NCBI GenBank assembly: GCA_017416285.1
Contig: JAFQCU010000018.1
Coordinates: forward strand, 1-47,768
DNA from: Clostridia bacterium
GTDB taxonomy: Bacteria > Bacillota > Clostridia > Oscillospirales > Acutalibacteraceae
Reading direction: 5' to 3'
DNA: 47,768 nt
Position 1 is the first letter of the stretch; every line of letters starts with the position of its first letter. A program made the translations under genes and the position numbers. Below the pieces are notes generated by a model that saw only the letters and a program-made list of their open reading frames with translations, ran no database searches and was not told where the DNA came from. Shown one piece after another: positions 5,594-34,433 of this stretch.

Positions 5594-5670
5594 GCGCTGA
5601 TAGCTCAGTTGGATAGAGCATCTGCCTTCTAAGCAGAGGGTCGGGGGTTCGAATCCCTTTCAGCGTGCCA
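5594..5670 (+). tRNA. tRNA-Arg (anticodon TCT), CCA encoded
   Basis: A full cloverleaf can be drawn: acceptor GCGCTGA/TCAGCGT, D-stem GCTC/GAGC, anticodon stem TCTGC/GCAGA with loop CTTCTAA (anticodon TCT, reads AGA/AGG), T-stem GGGGG/CCCTT with loop TTCGAAT, discriminator G, then CCA. It has its own promoter and terminator. The accessory DNA begins right behind it, as is common at tRNA genes. Confidence 0.96.
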
Positions 5671-5671
5671 G

Positions 5672-5703
5672 AAAAAAGCATCGACTTTGTCGGTGCTTTT
5701 TTC
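5672..5703 (+). terminator. Terminator of tRNA-Arg
   Basis: AAAAAAGCATCGAC / GTCGGTGCTTTTTT stem with a TTT-type loop and a T-run. Confidence 0.85.
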
Positions 5704-5883
5704 AATGAAATTCGCCTTGTGGCGAGTGAAATATTACCTCGTAATATGAAATAGCTTCGCTATGAAATATTTGCTTCGCAAATGTTAAGAGGCGAATTTT
5801 ATTTCACTTTCTGCTAAAGCAGAAAATTTCACAATTCACGATAGTGAATTATTTCATATTTTCCGTAAGGAAAATATTTCATT
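5704..5883. repeat. Hairpin array A (seven hairpins, linker ATGAAAT / ATTTCAT)
   Basis: Seven small perfect hairpins of different sequence are joined by a near-constant 7-8 bp linker. Units: CGCC-TTGT-GGCG; ATATTAC-CTC-GTAATAT; AGC-TTC-GCT; ATTTGC-TTC-GCAAAT; then TTTCTGC-TAAA-GCAGAAA; AATTCAC-GATA-GTGAATT; ATTTTCC-GTAA-GGAAAAT. The linker is (A/G)TGAAAT after the first three hairpins and its reverse complement ATTTCA(C/T) from 5801 on, so the array turns round at about 5784-5800. The two arms can also pair with each other (AAATTCGCC near 5709 with GGCGAATTT near 5791). There is no coding sequence. Confidence 0.8.
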
Positions 5884-6887: not shown

Positions 6888-8672
6888 TTATTTATCACTT
6901 TTAATAATGCCGATTGAAAGCTCTGCAAGCTGCTTTTCATCAACGGGCGAGGGTGCGCCGGACATTAATTCACCTGTGTTTGAAACCTTGGGGAAGGCAA
7001 TAACGTCACGAAGTGAATCACAGCCGCACATAATCATTGTAAGACGGTCAAGACCAATACCCATACCGCCGTGTGGAGGTGCACCGTAACGGTAAGCATC
7101 AACGAGGAAGCCAAACTTTTCTGCTGCTTCTTCGTCCGAAAGACCGAGGGCTGCAAACATTTTCTTTTGAAGCTCGGGGTCAGAAATACGGATAGAGCCG
7201 CTTGATAATTCGGTTCCGTTAAGCACAAGGTCATAAGCCTTTGCAAATACCTTTTCGGGTGCGGTATCAAGATACTGAAGACATTCATCTAAAGGCGAAG
7301 TGAACGGGTGGTGCATTGCATCCCAGTTGCCTGTTTCCTCATTGTATTCGAAGAATGGGAATTCGGTAATCCACAAGAAGTTAAAGCCTTCGGGTATGAT
7401 TTCAAGACGTTTTGCAACGGTTAAACGAAGTGCACCAAGTACAGAAAGGCAAATGTTCTTTTTATCTGCCACGATAAGCACAACGTCGCCCTTTTCAGCG
7501 CCTGTGCGTTCAATAATGGCCGCCATTTCCTCTTCAGTCATAAACTTCGAGAAAGAACAGGTGGGGGTATCTTCAACCCAACGTATAAAGGCAAGACCCT
7601 TAGCACCGATACCCTTTGCATCTTCGGTTAATTTGTCAATTTCTTTTCTGGTGTAAACGCCTGCAGCATTTTTAGCGGTAATAGCACGCACTGTGCCACC
7701 GTTTTTAACGGTGTCCGCAAAAACGCCAAAGCCACAATTTTCGACAATGTCCGACAAGTCCTTAATTTTCATTTCAAAGCGAGTGTCGGGCTTATCACTG
7801 CCGTAATCGTTCATAGCTTCGGTATAGGTAAGGCGGGGAAGCGGTGTCGGAATTTCAACATTTAAAACTTCCTTGAAAAGACGGTTTATAAAGCCTTCAG
7901 CAATTGAAAAAACGTCCTCCATTTCCACAAATGACATTTCAAGGTCAATTTGGGTAAATTCGGGCTGACGGTCTGCACGCAAGTCCTCGTCACGGTAGCA
8001 ACGTGCAAGCTGCATATAACGGTCGAAGCCTGAAAGCATTAAAAGCTGTTTATAAAGCTGAGGCGATTGGGGAAGTGCAAAAAAGCTGCCCTTATGAACA
8101 CGTGAGGGAACAAGATAGTCACGTGCGCCTTCGGGTGTGGATTTAATAAAGGTTGGGGTTTCAATTTCAATAAAGCCGTTTTCATCAAAATAGTCACGTG
8201 TAACCTTTGCGATTTTGTGACGCATTAAAATGTTATTTTGAATAACGGGGCGTCTTAAATCAAGATAGCGGTATTTAAGGCGAAGCTCATCATTTGCAAG
8301 GCATTTATCCAAAATTTCAAAAGGTGTGGTTTCGCTGGCGCCCAAAACCTTAAGGGTTTCTACTTCAATTTCAATATCTCCTGTGGGGATATCGTGGTTG
8401 ATTGAAGAACGCATTCTAACCTTACCTTCTACCATAAGCACGTATTCGCTTCTAATGGCAGATGCTTTTTCGAAAATTGCCTTATCGGTATTATCGTCAA
8501 AAGCAAGCTGAACAATACCGGTTCTGTCACGCAAATCAATAAATATAAGTCCGCCAAGGTCACGCTGGCGTTGTACCCAACCGCAAACGACAACCTTTTT
8601 GTCTAAATCTTCTTTTCTCAGCACGCCGCAATAGTGGGTGCGCTTAAGTCCATCCATTCTGTCAAGTTGCAA
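6888..8672 (-). CDS. aspS: Aspartyl-tRNA synthetase
   Basis: 594 residues, normal for the bacterial class II enzyme with the GAD insertion. It attaches Asp to tRNA-Asp in the cytoplasm. An OB-fold anticodon domain comes first (VVVCGWVQRQRDLGGLIFID, RDRTGIVQLAFD), then class II motif 2 (RCYRDEDLRADRQPEFTQID), the GAD-type insertion, and motif 3 (GMGIGLDRLTMI). The start is TTG at 8672, because GGAGTG lies 7 bp before it; the ATG at 8657 has no ribosome site. It follows hisS by 12 bp as the last gene of the block, a common pairing in Firmicutes. I cannot tell from sequence alone whether it also charges tRNA-Asn. Confidence 0.97.
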   Translation of the reverse strand: MQLDRMDGLKRTHYCGVLRKEDLDKKVVVCGWVQRQRDLGGLIFIDLRDRTGIVQLAFDDNTDKAIFEKASAIRSEYVLMVEGKVRMRSSINHDIPTGDIEIEVETLKVLGASETTPFEILDKCLANDELRLKYRYLDLRRPVIQNNILMRHKIAKVTRDYFDENGFIEIETPTFIKSTPEGARDYLVPSRVHKGSFFALPQSPQLYKQLLMLSGFDRYMQLARCYRDEDLRADRQPEFTQIDLEMSFVEMEDVFSIAEGFINRLFKEVLNVEIPTPLPRLTYTEAMNDYGSDKPDTRFEMKIKDLSDIVENCGFGVFADTVKNGGTVRAITAKNAAGVYTRKEIDKLTEDAKGIGAKGLAFIRWVEDTPTCSFSKFMTEEEMAAIIERTGAEKGDVVLIVADKKNICLSVLGALRLTVAKRLEIIPEGFNFLWITEFPFFEYNEETGNWDAMHHPFTSPLDECLQYLDTAPEKVFAKAYDLVLNGTELSSGSIRISDPELQKKMFAALGLSDEEAAEKFGFLVDAYRYGAPPHGGMGIGLDRLTMIMCGCDSLRDVIAFPKVSNTGELMSGAPSPVDEKQLAELSIGIIKSDK

Positions 8673-8684
8673 GAAAAAACACTC

Positions 8685-9992
8685 CTATTCTGCTAATGCT
8701 TCAGTAAGGCTGTCAAGTGCGGATTTGTTTAAAGCCGCAAACAGTTCGTCACTGATATTTGAAAGCTTAACGGTGGTTTCCTCACCGCTTTGCATATTTT
8801 TAAGTCTTGCGCTGCCGCTGTCAATTTCGCTGTCGCCCAAAACCATTGTAAAGGTAGCACCTATTTTGTCGGCAAATTTCATCTGTGCTTTAAGCCCACG
8901 TGATGTAATGTCGGTTTGTACCTTAAAGCCGTCTGCCCTTAATAAAGCGCAAAGCTCACTTGCTTTAAGAGATGCGGCTTCACCCATTGTGGCAATGTAA
9001 AGCTCACAGGTGTTAATTTTCGGAAGCTCGGTCTTTTGGGCATCAAGCACAAGCATTAATCTTTCAATACCCATACCAAAGCCAAGTGCAGGAACCGAGG
9101 GACCGCCCATCTGGTTTACAAGCCCGTCGTATCTGCCGCCACCGCAAACTGTGCTTTGTGCACCGATATCACCCGAAACAAACTCAAATACTGTGCGGGT
9201 ATAATAGTCAAGACCACGCACAATATGGGGATTAACCGTATATTTAATACCGGCGGCATCAAGATGCTTTTTAACACCCCCAAAATGTGATTTACAGTCA
9301 TCACAAAGGTAATCAATAACAACAGGTGCGTTTTTAGCAAGGTCGGAACAAACGGGTGACTTGCAGTCCAAAATACGCATTGGGTTGCGGTCAAGGCGTT
9401 CCTTACAGGTTGCACAGAGAGTATCAAGATTTTCACTAAAATATTGCTTTAGGGCAGCCTGATAATTCTTGCGGCATTCGGGACAGCCGATAGAATTGAT
9501 TTCAAGCGAGATTTTTTCAATACCCACGCTGTCAAGCACCTGTTTAGCAAGCATAATAACCTCGGCATCGGCATTAGGAGAGGCTGCGCCAAAGCATTCA
9601 ACACCAAACTGATGGAATTCACGAAGTCTGCCCGCTTGGGGTTTTTCATAACGGTAGCAACCGCCGATATAACACACCTTTAAGGGAAGAGCGCCTTGAA
9701 CAAGCCCCTTTTCAATAGCTGAACGCACTACGCCTGCGGTAAGCTCGGGGCGAAGTGTTATAGAACGTCCGCCCTTGTCATCAAAGGTATACATTTCTTT
9801 TTGAACAACGTCGGTTGTATCACCAACACTTCTTTTAAAAACCTCGGTATGCTCAAAAACCGGCACACGGATTTCTTCAAAACCGTACATACGTGCGGTT
9901 TCAAGCATTTTGCCTTCAACAAACTGCCATTTTTGGCTGTCTTGGGGCAAAACGTCATTAGTGCCCTTTATGGCACGGTTAATTTCACTCAT
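8685..9992 (-). CDS. hisS: Histidyl-tRNA synthetase
   Basis: 435 residues, normal length. Class II enzyme that charges tRNA-His. Visible: IKGTNDVLPQDSQKW at the N terminus, motif 2 region CYRYEKPQAGRLREFHQFG, the histidine-specific RGLDYYTRTVFEF and GGGRYDGLV, and a C-terminal anticodon-binding domain. A cysteine-rich insertion (IGCPECRKNY .. CATCKERL .. CKSPVC .. CDDC) lies near 170-235; insertions with paired CxxC motifs occur in some clostridial HisRS and could bind zinc. RBS GGAG lies 8 bp before the ATG. No T-box leader is present: the gene follows mgsA by only 15 bp. Confidence 0.97.
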   Translation of the reverse strand: MSEINRAIKGTNDVLPQDSQKWQFVEGKMLETARMYGFEEIRVPVFEHTEVFKRSVGDTTDVVQKEMYTFDDKGGRSITLRPELTAGVVRSAIEKGLVQGALPLKVCYIGGCYRYEKPQAGRLREFHQFGVECFGAASPNADAEVIMLAKQVLDSVGIEKISLEINSIGCPECRKNYQAALKQYFSENLDTLCATCKERLDRNPMRILDCKSPVCSDLAKNAPVVIDYLCDDCKSHFGGVKKHLDAAGIKYTVNPHIVRGLDYYTRTVFEFVSGDIGAQSTVCGGGRYDGLVNQMGGPSVPALGFGMGIERLMLVLDAQKTELPKINTCELYIATMGEAASLKASELCALLRADGFKVQTDITSRGLKAQMKFADKIGATFTMVLGDSEIDSGSARLKNMQSGEETTVKLSNISDELFAALNKSALDSLTEALAE

Positions 9993-10007
9993 ATTTAATG
10001 CTCCAAA

Positions 10008-10412
10008 TTAGTGGTTAGATTTTACAATATCACGCCAGTCAAGGTCGCCACGCTCTAAACCGTGAATAAGCATTTCAGCGGTAGCAATATTTGTGGCAAC
10101 GGGGATATTATGAACGTCACAAAGGCGTAAAAGTGAACGCTCGTCGGGTTCGTTGGGTTTTGGGTTGAGAGGATCACGGAATAAGAGCAAAAGGTCGATT
10201 TCGTCACAACCGATACGTGAAGCAATCTGTTGTGAGCCACCCTGTGAGCCGCTTAAAAAGGAGGTTATCTCAAGCCCAGTCGCATCGGTAACAATTTTAC
10301 CTGTGCCACCGGTGGCAACAAGGTTATAACGGCTTAAAATACCGCAATAAGCAATGCAAAATTGTACCATAAGTTCTTTCTTTGCGTCGTGTGCGATTAG
10401 TGCAATTGTCAT
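10008..10412 (-). CDS. mgsA: Methylglyoxal synthase
   Basis: 134 residues, normal for the family. Converts dihydroxyacetone phosphate to methylglyoxal and phosphate, a bypass of lower glycolysis. Family motifs: IALIAHDAKKELMVQF, the phosphate loop ATGGTGKI, SGSQGGSQQIASRI and the catalytic LLLLFRDPLNPKPNEPD segment with its aspartates. RBS GAGAGG. It follows minD by 14 bp; mgsA next to the mre/min cluster is a recurrent Firmicutes arrangement. Confidence 0.97.
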   Translation of the reverse strand: MTIALIAHDAKKELMVQFCIAYCGILSRYNLVATGGTGKIVTDATGLEITSFLSGSQGGSQQIASRIGCDEIDLLLLFRDPLNPKPNEPDERSLLRLCDVHNIPVATNIATAEMLIHGLERGDLDWRDIVKSNH

Positions 10413-27720: not shown

Positions 27721-27759
27721 AAAAAAACACAATAAACCATAAAGATATTGTTTAATTTT

Positions 27760-27919
27760 GATAGCACTCCGCAAATGCGACAGTAAAGCGGATATTATTC
27801 CGAATTACCAAGGAGCTGCCCGCCGACAGCAACTTTCGGCGACTGCCCCTTTCACAGTTACATTTTTCTGCCGAAATTAACATTAACTGCTACTGATGAC
27901 AAACCGCACCTCTATCTTA
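27760..27919 (-). promoter_or_regulatory. Lysine riboswitch (L box)
   Basis: On the minus strand the conserved L-box pieces appear in order: GATAGAGGTGCGG at the 5' side, GTGAAAGGGGCAGTCGCCG and AAAGTTGCTGTCGGCGG in the middle, and CTGTCGCATTTGCGGAGTGC closing with CTATC, which pairs with the first GATAG as stem P1. Length is about 160 nt, normal for this class. It has a promoter upstream, a terminator downstream and dapA-lysA as target. Confidence 0.93.
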
Positions 27920-27928
27920 TTGTCAACA

Positions 27929-27957: not shown

Positions 27958-28068
27958 TTAAAGTGAAATTTTTAATAAAAAATTTGAAAAAAATAATAAA
28001 AAATGTAGATTTTAGAAGCGAAATGTGTTAGAATATCTTGTAATATTTTTTGATTTAAGGTGAAATTA

Positions 28069-29259
28069 ATGAAAAGAAAAGTCGGTACAGTATCTCGTGG
28101 TATTCGTTGCCCTATTATCCGCAAAGGCGATAATTTGGCGCAAATCGTTACCGAAAGCGTAATTGATGCGGCTAATAGCGAAGGGTTTGAGCTTCGTGAC
28201 CGTGACGTTGTTGCAATGACCGAATCTATCGTTGCACGTGCTCAGGGTAACTATGCATCGATTGATGCAATCGGAAAAGATGTAAAGGAAAAATTTGGCG
28301 ACAATACAGTCGGTGTTATTTTTCCGATTTTATCACGCAACCGTTTTTCAATTTGTTTAAAGGGCATTGCTAAAGGTGCTAAAAAAATTGTTTTAATGCT
28401 TAGCTATCCGTCTGACGAGGTGGGAAACGCCCTCGTTACGTTAGACCAAATTGATGAAAGCGGAATTAATCCTTATAGCGACGTTTTATCGCTCGAACGC
28501 TATCGTGAGGTTTTTGGTTATCCCGTTCACGAATTCACAGGCATGGATTACGTTACTTATTATAAAGAGCTTATCGAAAGCTGCGGCTGCGAGGCCGAGA
28601 TTATTTTTGCCAATCAGGCAAAGGCTATTCTTGATTATACTGATTGCGTTCTTGTTTGTGATATTCACACTCGTGCCCGTACAAAGCGTATTTTAAGAGA
28701 AAACGGCGCTAAAATTGTTTACGGCTTTGACGAAATTTTAAATAAACCTGTTGACGGTAGCGGATATAATGCTAAATACGGTCTTTTGGGCTCTAATAAA
28801 TCAACCGAAGATACAATCAAGCTTTTCCCAAATGAATGTCAGGATTTGGTGGAGAACATTCAATCGCTTTTCCTTGAAAAAACGGGCAAGCATATTGAGG
28901 TTATGGTTTACGGCGACGGTGCTTTCAAAGACCCCCAAGGAAAGATTTGGGAGCTTGCCGACCCGTGTGTTTCTCCTGCATTTACAGCCGGCCTTATTGG
29001 TACTCCAAACGAAATTAAACTAAAGTACCTTGCTGATAATGATTTTAAGGATTTGTCGGGCGAGGCTCTTAAAGAGGCAATTTCAAAAAGCATTAAAGAA
29101 AAGCAGGATAATCTTGTGGGCAATATGGCTTCTCAAGGCACAACCCCACGACAGCTTACCGACCTTATCGGTTCACTTTGCGATTTAACAAGCGGCTCGG
29201 GCGATAAGGGTACACCCGTTGTTTTGGTGCAAGGTTATTTTGACAACTATACTAATTAA
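28069..29259 (+). CDS. CofE-like (F420-0:glutamate ligase family) protein
   Basis: 396 residues from ATG 28069, with AAGGTG 6 bp upstream (the in-frame GTG at 28060 is part of that ribosome site). The N-terminal part (IRCPIIRKGDNLAQIVTESV, RDRDVVAMTESIVARAQGNY, GDNTVGVIFPILSRNRFSI) matches the fold seen in CofE, which adds glutamate to coenzyme F420-0. Later segments GSGYNAKYGLLGSNKSTEDT and MVYGDGAFKDPQGKIWELAD also fit long CofE relatives found in clostridia. No other F420 gene is nearby, and clostridia mostly lack F420, so the actual acceptor is probably different. Single gene with its own terminator. Confidence 0.78.
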   Translation: MKRKVGTVSRGIRCPIIRKGDNLAQIVTESVIDAANSEGFELRDRDVVAMTESIVARAQGNYASIDAIGKDVKEKFGDNTVGVIFPILSRNRFSICLKGIAKGAKKIVLMLSYPSDEVGNALVTLDQIDESGINPYSDVLSLERYREVFGYPVHEFTGMDYVTYYKELIESCGCEAEIIFANQAKAILDYTDCVLVCDIHTRARTKRILRENGAKIVYGFDEILNKPVDGSGYNAKYGLLGSNKSTEDTIKLFPNECQDLVENIQSLFLEKTGKHIEVMVYGDGAFKDPQGKIWELADPCVSPAFTAGLIGTPNEIKLKYLADNDFKDLSGEALKEAISKSIKEKQDNLVGNMASQGTTPRQLTDLIGSLCDLTSGSGDKGTPVVLVQGYFDNYTN

Positions 29260-29268
29260 TTTTTTTGC

Positions 29269-29301
29269 AAAACAGTCCGATTTTTTTCGGGCTGTTTTTA
29301 T
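29269..29301 (+). terminator. Terminator after the CofE-like gene
   Basis: AAAACAGTCCGA / TCGGGCTGTTTTT with a T-rich loop and tail. Confidence 0.85.
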
Positions 29302-29373: not shown

Positions 29374-32300
29374 ATGCCCGGCTCTCCGGTTGATGCAATT
29401 ATTAAGCATGCAATATCGAATATCGATTCTGTCAAGATTTTAAAGAGAAGTGTGGCAACCCTTCTCACGATTAATAAAGATGAAGTTAAAACATTTATAA
29501 CTGCAATTTGCGAAATTGATATATCGAAAGCGGCTGCTTTGCTTGAGGTTTTACCCGACGATTTAAAAGCCTGCTGTAAATCGATTGTTGATGAAAATTT
29601 CCAACAAATCGGTCATGACAAGAAAGCAATTACCTTGCAGGAGCTTTCGGGTATTCTGGAATTTGACCAACAGGATTTATTTTCGCAAGCTTTTCCGAAT
29701 ATAACTAAAGAGGTTATTAAGAAAGGCTTCGCATCATTTTCGGGCAAAAATAATTGCCGTTTTATGCGTATGTTTGTGCCCTTTAAGGAAAGCGAACTAT
29801 ACGAGGTTTGCGAAAATGCGTTTTGCGAATACTTAAACCATTATGAATCTTCTGCTAAAAATGAGCTAAAGTTATTATTGCCGCAGCTTTTTGAAATCGG
29901 TGCTGTTAAGCCAATTTCAAAGCTTTTAACAATACTCGGTACCGAGCATTTGAGCGAGCTTTATGACGGCGACCTTAAAACCGCTATGTCGGATTTGATA
30001 ATAGCCGACTGTCAAAGCATTGAAATTTGGGATGCATATTTTAATTTGTTTTTTAAGGAATCGCATAATGAAGAAACCGTTTTAGAGGACGGTCTTTGGT
30101 TTATGCAGTTAAATTGCTGTGATGAGATTTTAGATTCGGTAGCGGCAAGCTTTTTCCTTTATGCTATGGGCAAATTGCCATATTCACATCCTATTTTTGA
30201 AAACACGAGTTTGTTTGAGTACGTTGAAAATTTTCCAAACAAGCATATGTATATTTATGAGCAATATATTCGTGATTTGTGGCATAACCCAACCGAGCTT
30301 AAGTCAATGCTTAGTGCCACCGAAATTTGCAATCCGTTTTTTAAGAAGGCTTTGCGTCACGGTAAAAATCTGCTTATTAAAAATAATGCTGATGATAACT
30401 CGAACGTTTTTAATATGCTCGAACAATTATTCATAAACGGCGCCAGCTGTGAAGAAATTGTTTATATATTCTTCAACACGTTTTTAAAGCTTTATCTTAA
30501 CATTGAAGACTTGTTCCGTGTGGCTAACAGATATGACTGCACAAGTGAAATTTTAGAGGTTTTGAAGGAAATTACCTTTGAAGGCACCATTAAAAAATAC
30601 AACATCGGTGTGTTGGTTTTTGCTTCGGAATACTATTATTCAAAATCGCAGTATACAATATCGCTTAATAACACCGAGCTTTTGTACATACTTAAAATTA
30701 ACGAGCAATACGACTGCAGACAGCTCAAGGGACGTATTGTGGAATACAAAATAACCGGCTATTATAATGATATAATTCAGGTTGGCGTTTTCAGACAGCC
30801 CATGCTTGACAACGAAAAAGTGTGTGATGCTTCGCTTTGGGAAGAAAGTATTTCAAAGTTTTGTGAAAATATTGTAAAGCCAAGGTTTAAAAAGGGTTTT
30901 GATTTCCGTGAATTGCAAATATCGGATTTTTCCTGTAATGATTTTATGGAAAATTGCGATTTTTCACTTTTTACCGATGCTATAATGCAAAATCCCGAAC
31001 AGCTACCAAGGGTTTTAACATTTTTGAAAACTGCACAGTGGAATATTCTTTTTACAATTAATGATATTTCGATTTCGAGAAACCTTTACGGAGCACTTTC
31101 TAAATATTGTGACAAGGCCGTTGAAATGTTTAAAACGCTTTTTGAAGCGGATTTGGATATTGACAACATACTTGACTTGTATTTTAACAGCATTTATAAG
31201 GTTATAATTCCGTTTGATTGCTTTATTGCTTTAACGGAAAAGGAAAAGATGCTAAAAGCGCTTTATGACCGTAGAATTTATTGTAAATTGCTTGACGGTG
31301 AAAACCGCCATAAGTGCCGTTTAATGAATATTGCTTGCGGACCGGTTTGCGTTGTAGCAAATGCCAATTTGTTGGAGGATGGCCGCAGAATACCTGCAAG
31401 GTGTATTGATTATAAGGTGTATGATGACGGCGTTGGTAAAATTATTTTTGAGGATGTTTTAAGGGAAACAATGACCCCCGGCGCAAGAGGTGAATTGTTT
31501 GGCTATGTAGCACAGAATATAAAAATCAACAGCCTTAAAAGAGAAAGAATACGCTATTTGCCCGATGCAAGTGAGCTTGACGTGCGTGAAATTAAGTTTA
31601 ACCTTGTTTTAATGGCGGCGGCTTTCAAATTGCGCTCTAGTACCGGTGTAGAGCTTTTAAGATTTGTGCGTACTTTCGGCACAAAAAATCCTTACAGCTT
31701 TCAGCAGGACGTTAATATAGATACGTTGTATTTATATAAATTTTATTCACAGCAAGACAATACCGATATACGCAACCAAATTGCACAAATGATACTTAAT
31801 ATCTACACAGCAACCAATATGGCGGAAATATATCTTAATACCCATTATAAGTATTGTATGGATATTAAAGAGTTTGCTTTAACAATTTGCAAACGCCGAC
31901 CGGAACTAAGCCTTACTGTTGCTTCAATGTTCGATAATTGGGAATTTGACTGTGCGGTTGATAGTCAAGGTAATTTAGTGTCTTATATGGTGCCGCATAA
32001 ATCGGTTAGTGTCGGTAAGGAATATGCGCTTAAATGTGTAAGATGCCGACTGTCTGTTTTGTCTAACGGCAATATAAGTGCAAGGGTAACTTCTGTTTTA
32101 GATGATAGCCAAATACTGTACCCCGTATTGTTCAGCGCAATGGTTGGCAACGACGTTGAAGATATTTTGCCACACCTTAAAAATGTGTTAAAGGATATGG
32201 GCGAATACGATGATTTTACAATAAATAAAATGACGTATTTTGGCAATGCACAGCATTTTAAGGAACAATTATCAAAGGATACCATTAAAGCGATGGCGGA

Positions 32301-32691
32301 CAGAACCCGTCCCGACAAGGCAGAGCTTCTTGCCCGTGTTGATTATTCGGACATTCTTACATTGCTTGCAAAAAAACCAATAAATATTTTCGAGCTTACA
32401 AAGGCCGTCGAAAAGCTTATCGAAAAGAACAGTTCTAAAATGTCGGCTTATGAAATTGAGACTATCGTTTGTGAAATTACCGAAACCTTTATTGCCAGAA
32501 GCTATTATAAGGAAGAAATATTCAAGTTTTTGTTTAGGGTATTTTCGAGCTATTCCTATTATATAAGGGATAACGAAATTGTTGAAATTTGGATAAAGCA
32601 GTTAAACGACCGCTTCGGCGAAGAAGTATCTGCCGAATTTGAAAAACAAATAAAATCACAACACAGATATATTAAAAATGACAAATTTTAA
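29374..32691 (+). CDS. Large protein of unknown function (1105 aa), partner of a HEPN-NACHT NTPase
   Basis: I do not recognise a family. 1105 residues with no signal peptide and no membrane helices, so cytoplasmic. Most of it looks alpha-helical and repeat-like in character (1-430, 480-630, 730-860, 930-1105). Three stretches look beta-rich and could be small OB/S1-like or similar barrels: about 445-480 (YDCRQLKGRIVEYKITGYYN), 630-700 (CRLMNIACGPVCVVANANLL) and 875-925 (SVGKEYALKCVRCRLSVLSN). No ATPase, nuclease or protease motif is visible. RBS GGGAAGTG. The stop overlaps the next frame (TAATG), so the two proteins are made together. A target-sensing or scaffold role next to the NTPase is an inference from size and context. 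Confidence 0.75.
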   Translation: MPGSPVDAIIKHAISNIDSVKILKRSVATLLTINKDEVKTFITAICEIDISKAAALLEVLPDDLKACCKSIVDENFQQIGHDKKAITLQELSGILEFDQQDLFSQAFPNITKEVIKKGFASFSGKNNCRFMRMFVPFKESELYEVCENAFCEYLNHYESSAKNELKLLLPQLFEIGAVKPISKLLTILGTEHLSELYDGDLKTAMSDLIIADCQSIEIWDAYFNLFFKESHNEETVLEDGLWFMQLNCCDEILDSVAASFFLYAMGKLPYSHPIFENTSLFEYVENFPNKHMYIYEQYIRDLWHNPTELKSMLSATEICNPFFKKALRHGKNLLIKNNADDNSNVFNMLEQLFINGASCEEIVYIFFNTFLKLYLNIEDLFRVANRYDCTSEILEVLKEITFEGTIKKYNIGVLVFASEYYYSKSQYTISLNNTELLYILKINEQYDCRQLKGRIVEYKITGYYNDIIQVGVFRQPMLDNEKVCDASLWEESISKFCENIVKPRFKKGFDFRELQISDFSCNDFMENCDFSLFTDAIMQNPEQLPRVLTFLKTAQWNILFTINDISISRNLYGALSKYCDKAVEMFKTLFEADLDIDNILDLYFNSIYKVIIPFDCFIALTEKEKMLKALYDRRIYCKLLDGENRHKCRLMNIACGPVCVVANANLLEDGRRIPARCIDYKVYDDGVGKIIFEDVLRETMTPGARGELFGYVAQNIKINSLKRERIRYLPDASELDVREIKFNLVLMAAAFKLRSSTGVELLRFVRTFGTKNPYSFQQDVNIDTLYLYKFYSQQDNTDIRNQIAQMILNIYTATNMAEIYLNTHYKYCMDIKEFALTICKRRPELSLTVASMFDNWEFDCAVDSQGNLVSYMVPHKSVSVGKEYALKCVRCRLSVLSNGNISARVTSVLDDSQILYPVLFSAMVGNDVEDILPHLKNVLKDMGEYDDFTINKMTYFGNAQHFKEQLSKDTIKAMADRTRPDKAELLARVDYSDILTLLAKKPINIFELTKAVEKLIEKNSSKMSAYEIETIVCEITETFIARSYYKEEIFKFLFRVFSSYSYYIRDNEIVEIWIKQLNDRFGEEVSAEFEKQIKSQHRYIKNDKF

Positions 32692-32705
32692 TGGAGTTGA
32701 TTACA

Positions 32706-34334
32706 ATGCAGGAAATCAGCAAAAATGAATTAATGAGCGAGCTCGAATTAACCTTTCCAAAAGATAAAGTTGAGCAAATGGTTGAGCTTTATGAGCAATT
32801 TGCAAATTTAGACACCAATGTTGAAACCGGTATACGTTCGTTGTGGATGGAAAACGTTGAGGATTTCTATGGTGGTTCGGGCGACAGGGCTATGGCACAC
32901 AGTTATCTCATTAACAGTGAAAGCTTTTTCAAAAAGCTTTTATTCGTTGTTGATGAGGAAGCTTATAATCAATTAAATGCCGATAATAAGCTTTGTTTAT
33001 ATGAAACAATGAAAAAATTGGGATTATTTAAAAACGTGCCAAGTGGGTTAAAAATCGACAGCGGTGATTTGTCTTTGATTGCAAGCGAAAAAACCCGTGC
33101 GGCAGTAAGGGCATATAGGCTACGCAATAAATCTGCCCACACTTCTGAACGCTTGGCATCAAGCCGAATGCTTGCAAACGTTAACGACGTTATAAGCACC
33201 ACCATTGACGTTGTGTGGAAAAACCGTGTAATTATTCAAAATAAAATTAATAAAAGTATGGTTGCCAGTCAGGTTGGTATAACCACACTTTTAAAAAACA
33301 TTGTTAAGGAATATGAGGACGAGGCAAAAAACGGTTTTGTTTATTTCCCGCTTTTGTGGCAAGGCGAGGATCGTGACGGTCAAAACAAATATAAGCGTAT
33401 TGACATTACCGAGCTTGCTGATGAAAAGCATATTTTGCTTTCGGCTGATGCGGGCTGCGGTAAAACAACCTCGTTAAGGAATTTGGAATATCATTTGGCG
33501 AAGAGCTATTTGTCGGGCAATTCTAATAAAATTCCGGTTAATATTGCGCTTATTGATGAAAGTCCGGATGCAAAATTAAGGGATATTATTTGCCGCAAGC
33601 TTAATATTTCTAATACCTATTGTGAAGAATTGTTGAAAAAGGGTCTTATCTATCTTATGATTGACGGTCTTAATGAGTTTACTAACGTCGCTGAGTATAA
33701 GAAAAAATTTGTAATTTCAATCGAACACTTTTTCAATAACTTCCCGAACGTGCAGGTTATTGTCACAGACAGACAGTTTTCGGAAATTCCCATACGTGTT
33801 GAAAAAACATACCATTTAAAGCCTATGGAAAAGCAAGACGTTTTGGCTTATGCACAAACCAAGACAGAATGTAAAAAGGATGCTAATGTTCTTACTCTTT
33901 TGGAAGAGGTTTTGAATAAACAGGATTCCGATGAAATTATATACACACCGCTTGTTGTTAATCAGTTGGTGATTACGCTTGATACACACAAGAAAATACC
34001 CGATGATCTAATCGGCGGTTATCTGGAAGCGTTAATGACACGTGAATTTGTGGAAAAACGTGATGTTAACGCCGCCCCCGGAAAGCTTGATATGCTTTTA
34101 ATGTATCTTGCAGTAGCAGCGGAAGACGTTTTCACAATGAGCCTTGTGGAGGCTATGGATACGTGTAGTGAGGCTATCAAGCGTTACTGTATCGGCATAT
34201 CATCTGATGCGGGAATCAACCTTGCTGTGCAAATGGGTATTCTTAGAAAAGTTGGCGAGGATATAGAATTTGCTTCGCCTGAATATCAGTCGTATTATTA
34301 TTTAAAGGCTATATCACGAGGTGCCTATCGCTAA
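32706..34334 (+). CDS. Predicted HEPN-NACHT NTPase (STAND family)
   Basis: 542 residues from ATG 32706, with GGAG 9 bp upstream; the ATG at 32691 overlaps the previous stop and contains that ribosome site. NTPase core: Walker A SADAGCGKTTSLRNL near 246-260, Walker B GLIYLMIDGLNEF near 313-325 (hhhhDG.NE as in NACHT), and the sensor VQVIVTDRQFSE near 350-361. The N-terminal 180 residues are helical and hold RNKSAH near 140-145, an R-N-x3-H motif as in HEPN ribonucleases, followed by a long helix. The C-terminal 150 residues are helical (winged-helix-like) and short; no leucine-rich or TPR repeats. It could be an RNA-cutting defence effector whose NTPase switch responds to its partner. Confidence 0.78.
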   Translation: MQEISKNELMSELELTFPKDKVEQMVELYEQFANLDTNVETGIRSLWMENVEDFYGGSGDRAMAHSYLINSESFFKKLLFVVDEEAYNQLNADNKLCLYETMKKLGLFKNVPSGLKIDSGDLSLIASEKTRAAVRAYRLRNKSAHTSERLASSRMLANVNDVISTTIDVVWKNRVIIQNKINKSMVASQVGITTLLKNIVKEYEDEAKNGFVYFPLLWQGEDRDGQNKYKRIDITELADEKHILLSADAGCGKTTSLRNLEYHLAKSYLSGNSNKIPVNIALIDESPDAKLRDIICRKLNISNTYCEELLKKGLIYLMIDGLNEFTNVAEYKKKFVISIEHFFNNFPNVQVIVTDRQFSEIPIRVEKTYHLKPMEKQDVLAYAQTKTECKKDANVLTLLEEVLNKQDSDEIIYTPLVVNQLVITLDTHKKIPDDLIGGYLEALMTREFVEKRDVNAAPGKLDMLLMYLAVAAEDVFTMSLVEAMDTCSEAIKRYCIGISSDAGINLAVQMGILRKVGEDIEFASPEYQSYYYLKAISRGAYR

Positions 34335-34335
34335 G

Positions 34336-34354
34336 AGGTGAACGCAATGTATAA
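34336..34354 (+). pseudogene. Start of a lost third gene in the NACHT operon
   Basis: Directly behind the NACHT stop there is a good ribosome site GAGGTG, the spacer AACGCA, and ATG TAT AAA AAT. Four codons later the sequence enters the IS3-type end repeat and stops at TAG. This looks like the head of a further operon gene removed by insertion and deletion. It could also be chance. Confidence 0.4.
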
Positions 34355-34433
34355 AAATCCCCTATGGTAGTTTCTTCTATTCTACCATAGGGGGTTCTTT
34401 TTTTCTATTGTCCGTTTTTACTGGACTTGTTCA
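34351..34433 (-). repeat. IS3-family end repeat, copy 2
   Basis: On the minus strand it begins TGAACAAGTCCAG, then the A-rich run and a perfect 12-bp stem (CCCCTATGGTAG / CTACCATAGGGG). The same order is present in copy 1 at 829-893, where transposase pieces follow. Here no transposase remains. Confidence 0.7.
34359..34402. terminator. Terminator formed by the IS-end hairpin
   Basis: CCCCTATGGTAG, an 11-base loop, CTACCATAGGGG, then TTCTTTTTTTCT. It lies between the convergent NACHT and spoIID genes and has an ATTTTTAT tail on the other strand, so the IS remnant probably serves both. Confidence 0.8.

Follow-up and report, generated by a model that had tools for sequence, protein, structure and literature searches.

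Can a NACHT protein leave the sensing of its trigger to a separately encoded partner? The question is raised by two adjacent genes on the + strand of a 47,768-nucleotide (nt) stretch of Clostridia bacterium DNA (GCA_017416285.1, contig JAFQCU010000018.1), referred to below in its entirety as the window. The first gene, P1 (29374..32691, +), is an open reading frame (ORF) for a 1105-amino-acid (aa) partner protein with a full-length homologue in a second genome, G865; the second, P2 (32706..34334, +), encodes a HEPN-like domain joined to a NACHT NTPase, with 542 aa when counted from Met6 and 547 aa when the frame is read from 32691. The original prediction, made from the DNA sequence alone, had placed two ORFs here, P1 at 29374-32691 and P2 at 32691-34334, both on the + strand, and both are found there. 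On balance, we favour the view that P1–P2 is a rare two-gene conflict cassette, most likely anti-phage, in which an NLR-like device is split over two chains.

P2 matched the NACHT family PF05729 with 36.7 bits (E 4.8e-9; curated cut-off, 26.7), and its homologue in G865 scored 41.4 bits. The chain consists of an N-terminal domain (residues 1-215), a NACHT core at about 237-400 and a winged-helix-like end, for which weak nSTAND_NTPase4 matches were obtained (E 0.11 and 0.032). The Walker A motif SADAGCGKTT (residues 251-260; 33441..33470, +) shares an invariant GCGKTT with the homologue, the first Gly position of the motif being Gly in G865 and not in P2; the acidic Walker B motif LMIDGLNE (residues 322-329; 33654..33677, +) shares IDGLNE, and the TDR triplet (residues 359-361; 33765..33773, +) is likewise invariant, with an arginine that we take to be sensor-1-like from its role in STAND NTPases in general. 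The two homologues share 37-38% local identity across the N-terminal domain, rising to 59% in the NACHT part. We assign P2 to the NACHT NTPases (PF05729) on these matches, in line with the original prediction of a P-loop NTPase with a NACHT-type Walker A, an acidic Walker B and a sensor motif. No PADLOC system model was matched over most of its length by P1, P2 or the G865 homologues; partial matches comprised mad8 (residues 225-303, E 3e-6) and PtuA (235-280) for P2, and mad8 (237-465), PDC-S68 (158-262) and GajB (112-174, E 0.025) for the homologue. Borderline matches of P2 to the botulinum neurotoxin D light chain (E 0.025-0.076) and a match to TRAPP subunit 3 (E 0.36, also borderline) were set aside as chance.

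Ahead of the NACHT core lies a domain that is very probably HEPN. It carries an R-N-x3-H motif, RNKSAH (residues 145-150; 33123..33140, +), as its predicted active site; the corresponding sequence in G865 is RNETVH, with R145, N146 and H150 invariant. In an hhalign comparison between the N-terminal profile of P2 and the C-terminal half of RnlA, the HEPN toxin of RnlAB (RNase LS of E. coli K-12), only the post-motif helix was aligned (P2 155-170), and ungapped extension of that register places P2 R145 and H150 on RnlA R318 and H323, which we take to be the catalytic pair of that enzyme. The likeness to RnlA thus comprises the Rx4H motif and the helix that follows it; RnlA itself is not known to carry an NTPase. 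The RN-x3-H motif does not occur before the NTPase in seven other NACHT proteins (six from plasmids and one from Kosakonia), nor anywhere in 17 NACHT-hit ORFs of the order.

The opposite end of P2 is short. In STAND proteins, a phrase resembling F-x-H-R-S-F-Q-E-Y-F marks the end of the winged helix, and the sensor begins after it. In P2 this position is occupied by FASPEYQSYY (residues 527-536; 34269..34298, +), aligned to the phrase of a 533-aa NACHT ORF of another genome (L070) and to G865; in P2 and its homologue the phrase is without the usual His, one alternative in the search pattern having been designed to recognise that form, and its placement rests on these alignments. Only 11 residues follow the phrase in P2 and eight in the homologue, and no C-terminal sensor was found on the P2 chain. 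The comparators were 18 NACHT-hit ORFs, the 17 of the order and that of Kosakonia; the phrase was found in eight and not in the remaining 10, and seven of the eight, including two close relatives (L072 and L073), run on for another 205-845 residues. The eighth, L070, has 18 residues after the phrase and its tail in a separate frame. Measured from Walker A, at least 495 residues follow in 12 of the 17 ORFs of the order, and 506-1102 residues follow GxGK[ST] in the six plasmid NACHT proteins and Kosakonia. The shortness noticed in the original prediction is therefore borne out, P2 stopping where most comparators with the phrase continue. It is not unique, however, and this counts against the favoured reading: in five of the 17 ORFs the stretch after Walker A is 227-307 residues long, that of P2 being 288. 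For three of the five (L078-L080), the match to the NACHT profile is confined to its first part.

These short ORFs merit a description of their own. L070 (genome G237, 8204-10408) is followed 48 nt further on, in a separate frame, by what appears to be the remainder of its tail; breakage or a frameshift of one gene is a likelier explanation than another split system. L078, L079 and L080 (genomes G057, G299 and G218) are three similar ORFs of 444-464 aa in same-strand gene runs, and they are probably other P-loop proteins and may not belong to the NACHT proteins.

P1, for its part, had been described as a large protein that fits no family, and this still stands, as no match was obtained in Pfam, PADLOC, NCBIfam or PHROGs at E values up to 1, and none that was convincing in PDB. 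Profile self-comparison by hhalign, with 60 column shuffles per pair, revealed an internal repeat in three copies: r1 (residues 336-484; 30379..30825, +), with an F-F-N-T-F-L-K phrase followed by a less conserved segment; r2 (residues 573-716; 31090..31521, +), with Y-F-N-S-I-Y-K followed by a five-Cys segment; and r3 (residues 791-932; 31744..32169, +), with Y-L-N-T-H-Y-K followed again by a less conserved segment. The phrase common to them is F/Y-F/L-N-T/S-x2-K; the original prediction had described the segments after it as beta-rich. The r1-r2 (E 1.8e-4) and r1-r3 (E 2.9e-3) similarities were reached by none of the 60 shuffles. The five Cys residues of r2 (637, 648, 655, 659 and 677; 31282-31404 of the window), spaced C-x10-C-x6-C-x3-C-x17-C, are kept in both homologues and possibly bind a metal. 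P1 and its G865 counterpart are least alike in the first 100 residues (23%) and at 901-1000 (28%).

Two results on P1 weigh against the favoured reading: r2-r3 taken alone is not significant (eight of 60 shuffles reach it), and the second segments of the repeats scored at shuffle level against an S1 profile (12, 22 and four of 40 shuffles reach the three scores) in a low-sensitivity test, the profile having been assembled from four S1 segments of rpsA cut at presumed boundaries. An RNA-binding OB fold in these second segments is a guess. P1 gave no Pfam TPR or S1 match, and it does not look like the detached C-terminal domain of other NACHT proteins, showing no profile similarity to six such tails. 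A housekeeping identity of P1 or P2 was rejected, as neither matched a housekeeping family in the libraries, and four further candidates were discarded as chance: elongation factor Ts for P1 (E 0.17 and 0.45, borderline), Cbl_N2 for the P1 homologue (E 0.011, below the cut-off), the CTXphi pIII-N1 domain for a P1 segment (E 0.14) and a 'CAP repeat' for the P1 repeat profile (E 0.0044).

The tie between the two genes was assessed from their distribution. The searches for P1 covered 60 relatives, 394 genomes from the order, 391 from the class and 300 from the family; P2 was run as a single query against 99 relatives and 391 class genomes, the samples of order and family serving for P1 only. These samples overlap and together comprise at most 967 genomes, and the collections may omit records very close to the window's genome. 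P1 was found in two genomes, the window's own and G865, which represents another genus of the same family (Acutalibacteraceae); a two-row P1 profile matched G865 but gave no hit in the single other genome of that genus. The single P2 query matched its own genome only, and a two-row P2 profile matched G865 alone among 26 relatives of that genome. P1 was absent from 36 genomes of the window's genus and P2 from 60, and in no sampled genome was either gene seen without the other. PF05729 itself is far commoner, with 19 of 295 genomes in the order carrying it.

In G865, the P1 homologue (L089:8280-11585, 1101 aa) is 35% identical over the full length and the P2 homologue (L089:11609-13237, 542 aa) is 47% identical; the two are adjacent, in the same order with P1 first, and a probable terminator follows the second. 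The conserved pairing that the original prediction had proposed to look for was thus encountered, with both genes at full length. The flanking genes of the G865 pair, two of which were named by Pfam, differ from those in the window. In addition, the congener with the closest spoIID found, G016, retains dapA (93% identity) and spoIID (65%) with neither P1 nor P2 between them; the two genes lying there instead resemble a transporter and an acyltransferase, names that come from their sequences rather than from a family search. An adjacent pair amid other neighbours in a second genus, together with a congener locus free of it, points to an accessory unit that occurs in different places, and both frames have stayed intact at 35-47% identity, which indicates selection on both proteins. 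We accordingly regard P1–P2, from these comparisons, as a conserved, rare accessory unit. Against reading more into the pairing, the co-occurrence rests on two genomes, and no defence gene was recognised around the G865 pair by eye and in two Pfam look-ups.

Mobile elements added little. Viral contigs, genome contigs and phages yielded nothing usable for relatives of the pair. Among plasmids, the NACHT region of P2 matched two records at E 1e-3 and 120 at E 10, and that of its homologue matched 17 at E 0.1; P1 had no plasmid match, and the N-terminal domain of P2 had one chance match (E 3). Three P1 matches in the class sample (G488, G652 and G684; E 0.001-0.008) were short, the first in a frame with two stops, and were rejected as chance.

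A NACHT switch with no visible sensor of its own, standing directly behind a large repeat protein and never found without it, suggests that P1 detects and P2 executes as the simplest mechanism. We tentatively propose a split bacterial NLR, in which a separate, obligate ligand-platform subunit, of an undescribed family with a triplicated unit, would license a HEPN-NACHT ribonuclease (RNase), so that sensing and killing could evolve at different rates and be swapped independently. P2, with its N-terminal HEPN RNase-like domain and NACHT switch, would end where most NACHT proteins carry the sensor, and P1 would be the missing platform, binding a trigger produced during infection. Formation of a physical complex with P1 would nucleate P2 oligomers together with nucleoside triphosphate, and the paired HEPN domains would then cut RNA, halting growth or phage replication. 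P1 has diverged faster (35% identity) than P2 (47%; NACHT part, 59%), which would suit a sensor evolving under pressure.

The strongest rival, which we nevertheless consider unlikely, reverses the sign of the interaction: P1 would be a guard or inhibitor holding P2 inactive in toxin–antitoxin fashion, and phage damage to P1 or to its partner would free the HEPN RNase. Such an arrangement would agree with the position of P1 as first gene in both genomes and with the fit of P2 to the active-site helix of RnlA (one of two HEPN proteins compared), since RnlA acts as the toxin in a toxin–antitoxin pair. Nonetheless, an antitoxin of 1105 aa would be exceptionally large, it would be hard to see what the NTPase switch on P2 is for, and the internal repeats of P1 would seem to fit a recognition platform better.

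A second, improbable alternative is that the N-terminal domain of P2 is a helical non-HEPN fold or a dead HEPN, with the effector activity residing in P1 or elsewhere. Several results count in its favour and thus against a HEPN RNase. No HEPN family profile (hidden Markov models of Pfam and PADLOC) matched either P2 homologue; RN-x3-H alone is a weak signal, as 12 of 412 six-frame ORFs, a set that includes spurious ones, have it within their first 217 residues; the overall hhalign similarity to RnlA is weak, being reached by three of 40 column shuffles; and the comparison with MtlR gave a negative result, its score being reached in 38 of 40 shuffles. Furthermore, Table 1 of PMC3710099 lists several HEPN families without the motif. 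On the other side, the three motif residues are invariant at 38% local identity, and the RnlA register withstands a decoy test in which the stretches that follow the motif and RnlA H323 were scored against each other without gaps, with Rx4H sites in other six-frame ORFs as decoys. Over 20 residues, P2 scored 11 and its homologue 17, scores reached by one and none of 288 decoys, respectively, and the motif site was the best of 195 windows in P2's own domain. Extending the comparison weakened the P2 result, the score being reached by three of 287 decoys at 26 residues and seven of 281 at 30, and by six of 189 and 11 of 185 windows of its own domain (the site counted); the homologue was reached by none of 287 and one of 281, and in its own domain the motif site was the best window at all three lengths. 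Of the HEPN signature named in the original prediction, the motif itself holds, invariant and in the register of RnlA, and a match to a HEPN family is missing.

The sequence around the genes bears on whether they form one unit. Upstream, a hairpin followed by Ts (29269..29298, +; -17.1 kcal/mol, z -5.6) is the probable intrinsic terminator of an F420-ligase-like gene and would set the 5' limit of the unit; downstream of P2, a 15-base-pair hairpin followed by Ts (34356..34396, +; -24.4 kcal/mol, z -6.5) is the probable intrinsic terminator closing it. A consensus terminator scan listed neither hairpin, the loop of 11 in the second exceeding the limits of that scan. The two flanking terminators suggest a unit of only P1 and P2, and a single operon is plausible. 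That much of the single operon with one promoter and a TAATG junction, as originally predicted, can be retained; the promoter cannot, since a promoter consensus scan gave 25 matches against 25.7 expected in shuffles and none stands out. The P1 stop and the first possible P2 start (32691) do overlap as TAATG. A start at 32706 is nevertheless likelier, because the only P2 homologue known here, that of G865, begins at a GTG aligned to P2 Met6 and because GGAG (32693-32696) lies 9 nt 5' of the Met6 ATG; the true start is thus probably Met6 rather than the junction. The locus end given earlier, 34354, overshoots the P2 stop by 20 nt. The GC content of the two genes is 0.363 and 0.384, compared with 0.404-0.408 in the flanks, and third-position GC is undistinctive.

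The neighbourhood lends the conflict reading no help: Pfam recognised no defence gene among the 18 window neighbours (PADLOC was not run there), the names being housekeeping or unknown. Beside spoIID at 14 congener loci, PADLOC run on 42 of 72 ORFs returned three families with one member each, none of them among the eight proteins followed up, and seven ORFs were identified by Pfam as metabolic, translation or signalling genes; from this coverage, a defence hotspot is not claimed. The idea that the pair is a host RNA-processing or stress-regulation module without a role against phage would suit these neighbours and the ORFs looked up beside the congener spoIID, but we rate it the least probable of the alternatives, given the very patchy distribution, with none in the other same-genus genomes sampled, and a domain pairing that the passages of PMC3710099 present as typical of conflict systems.

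Other features of the window are recorded here for completeness. Directly upstream of P1 is an F420-0:gamma-glutamyl ligase-like gene (PF01996, E 2e-56; 28060-29259), which, like P1–P2, did not turn up in the 18 kb of congener G016 where dapA and spoIID are retained. A Lysine riboswitch (RF00168, 82.4 bits; 27754-27922, -) lies directly upstream of dapA and a diaminopimelate-decarboxylase-like gene, and tRNA-Arg(tct) (5594-5670) is followed within some 35 nt by a Gut-1 RNA (RF01706, 66.9 bits; 5703-5773).

Among known systems, the closest in architecture have their parts on one chain. Passages of two papers (PMC12169576, PMC10952713) describe bacterial NACHT (bNACHT) proteins as tripartite single chains of effector, NACHT and C-terminal sensor. 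These NLR-related anti-phage proteins share with P2 a NACHT STAND NTPase and an N-terminal effector position, whereas P2 lacks the C-terminal sensor tail and has a separate 1105-aa partner gene. A 2013 catalogue (PMC3710099) lists fusions that join HEPN to STAND-ATPase, TPR and S1 domains, and also to cold-shock-like OB parts; as the passages on them have it, Npun_F6454, MED222_16016 and Desac_1927 (Swt1-like row of Table 1) likewise combine a HEPN motif, a STAND NTPase and a large platform. Compared by description rather than by sequence, our system differs in being two genes in both genomes, with the partner upstream and P1 without a TPR or S1 match.

Multi-gene systems offer a looser resemblance. 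The two-STAND conflict systems, in the passages of PMC8195603 that treat them, have an inactive STAND fused to GT4 or HEPN, so that a HEPN-bearing STAND protein works with a second gene product; there, however, the active STAND is the partner and HEPN sits on the eroded one, whereas in our pair the NTP motifs are intact on the chain that bears HEPN, and no NTPase was recognised in P1. SAMD9 family proteins, whose AlbA, Sir2-like, STAND-like NTPase, TPR and OB-fold parts are set out in passages of PMC5445408, combine a STAND switch with a repeat platform but on a single chain and with another effector, and neither P1 nor P2 had a Pfam match to their domains. CARD-NLR systems such as LypABC, according to the part of PMC13236601 that describes them, are multi-gene with an NLR-like ATPase at the centre; their peptidase and CARD-like parts were not recognised in P1 or P2, and that description mentions no HEPN. 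Validated systems with NACHT or HEPN domains also appear in passages of the DefensePredictor study (PMC13092281). In the open-licence PubMed Central literature (titles, abstract starts and passages of eight papers), no two-gene system of HEPN-NACHT plus a large partner turned up. P2 is filed as a NACHT NTPase, and the pair was not filed with bNACHT or the HEPN-STAND fusions because it lacks their one-chain feature; by analogy, it is like a split version of these single-chain forms.

In NLR-like immune proteins, sensor, switch and executor normally come fused. If the interpretation proposed here is true, P1–P2 would add a partner family absent from all the libraries searched, and such a natural two-part version would offer a separable handle on what is sensed as well as a direct test of whether a NACHT switch needs a covalently attached sensor.

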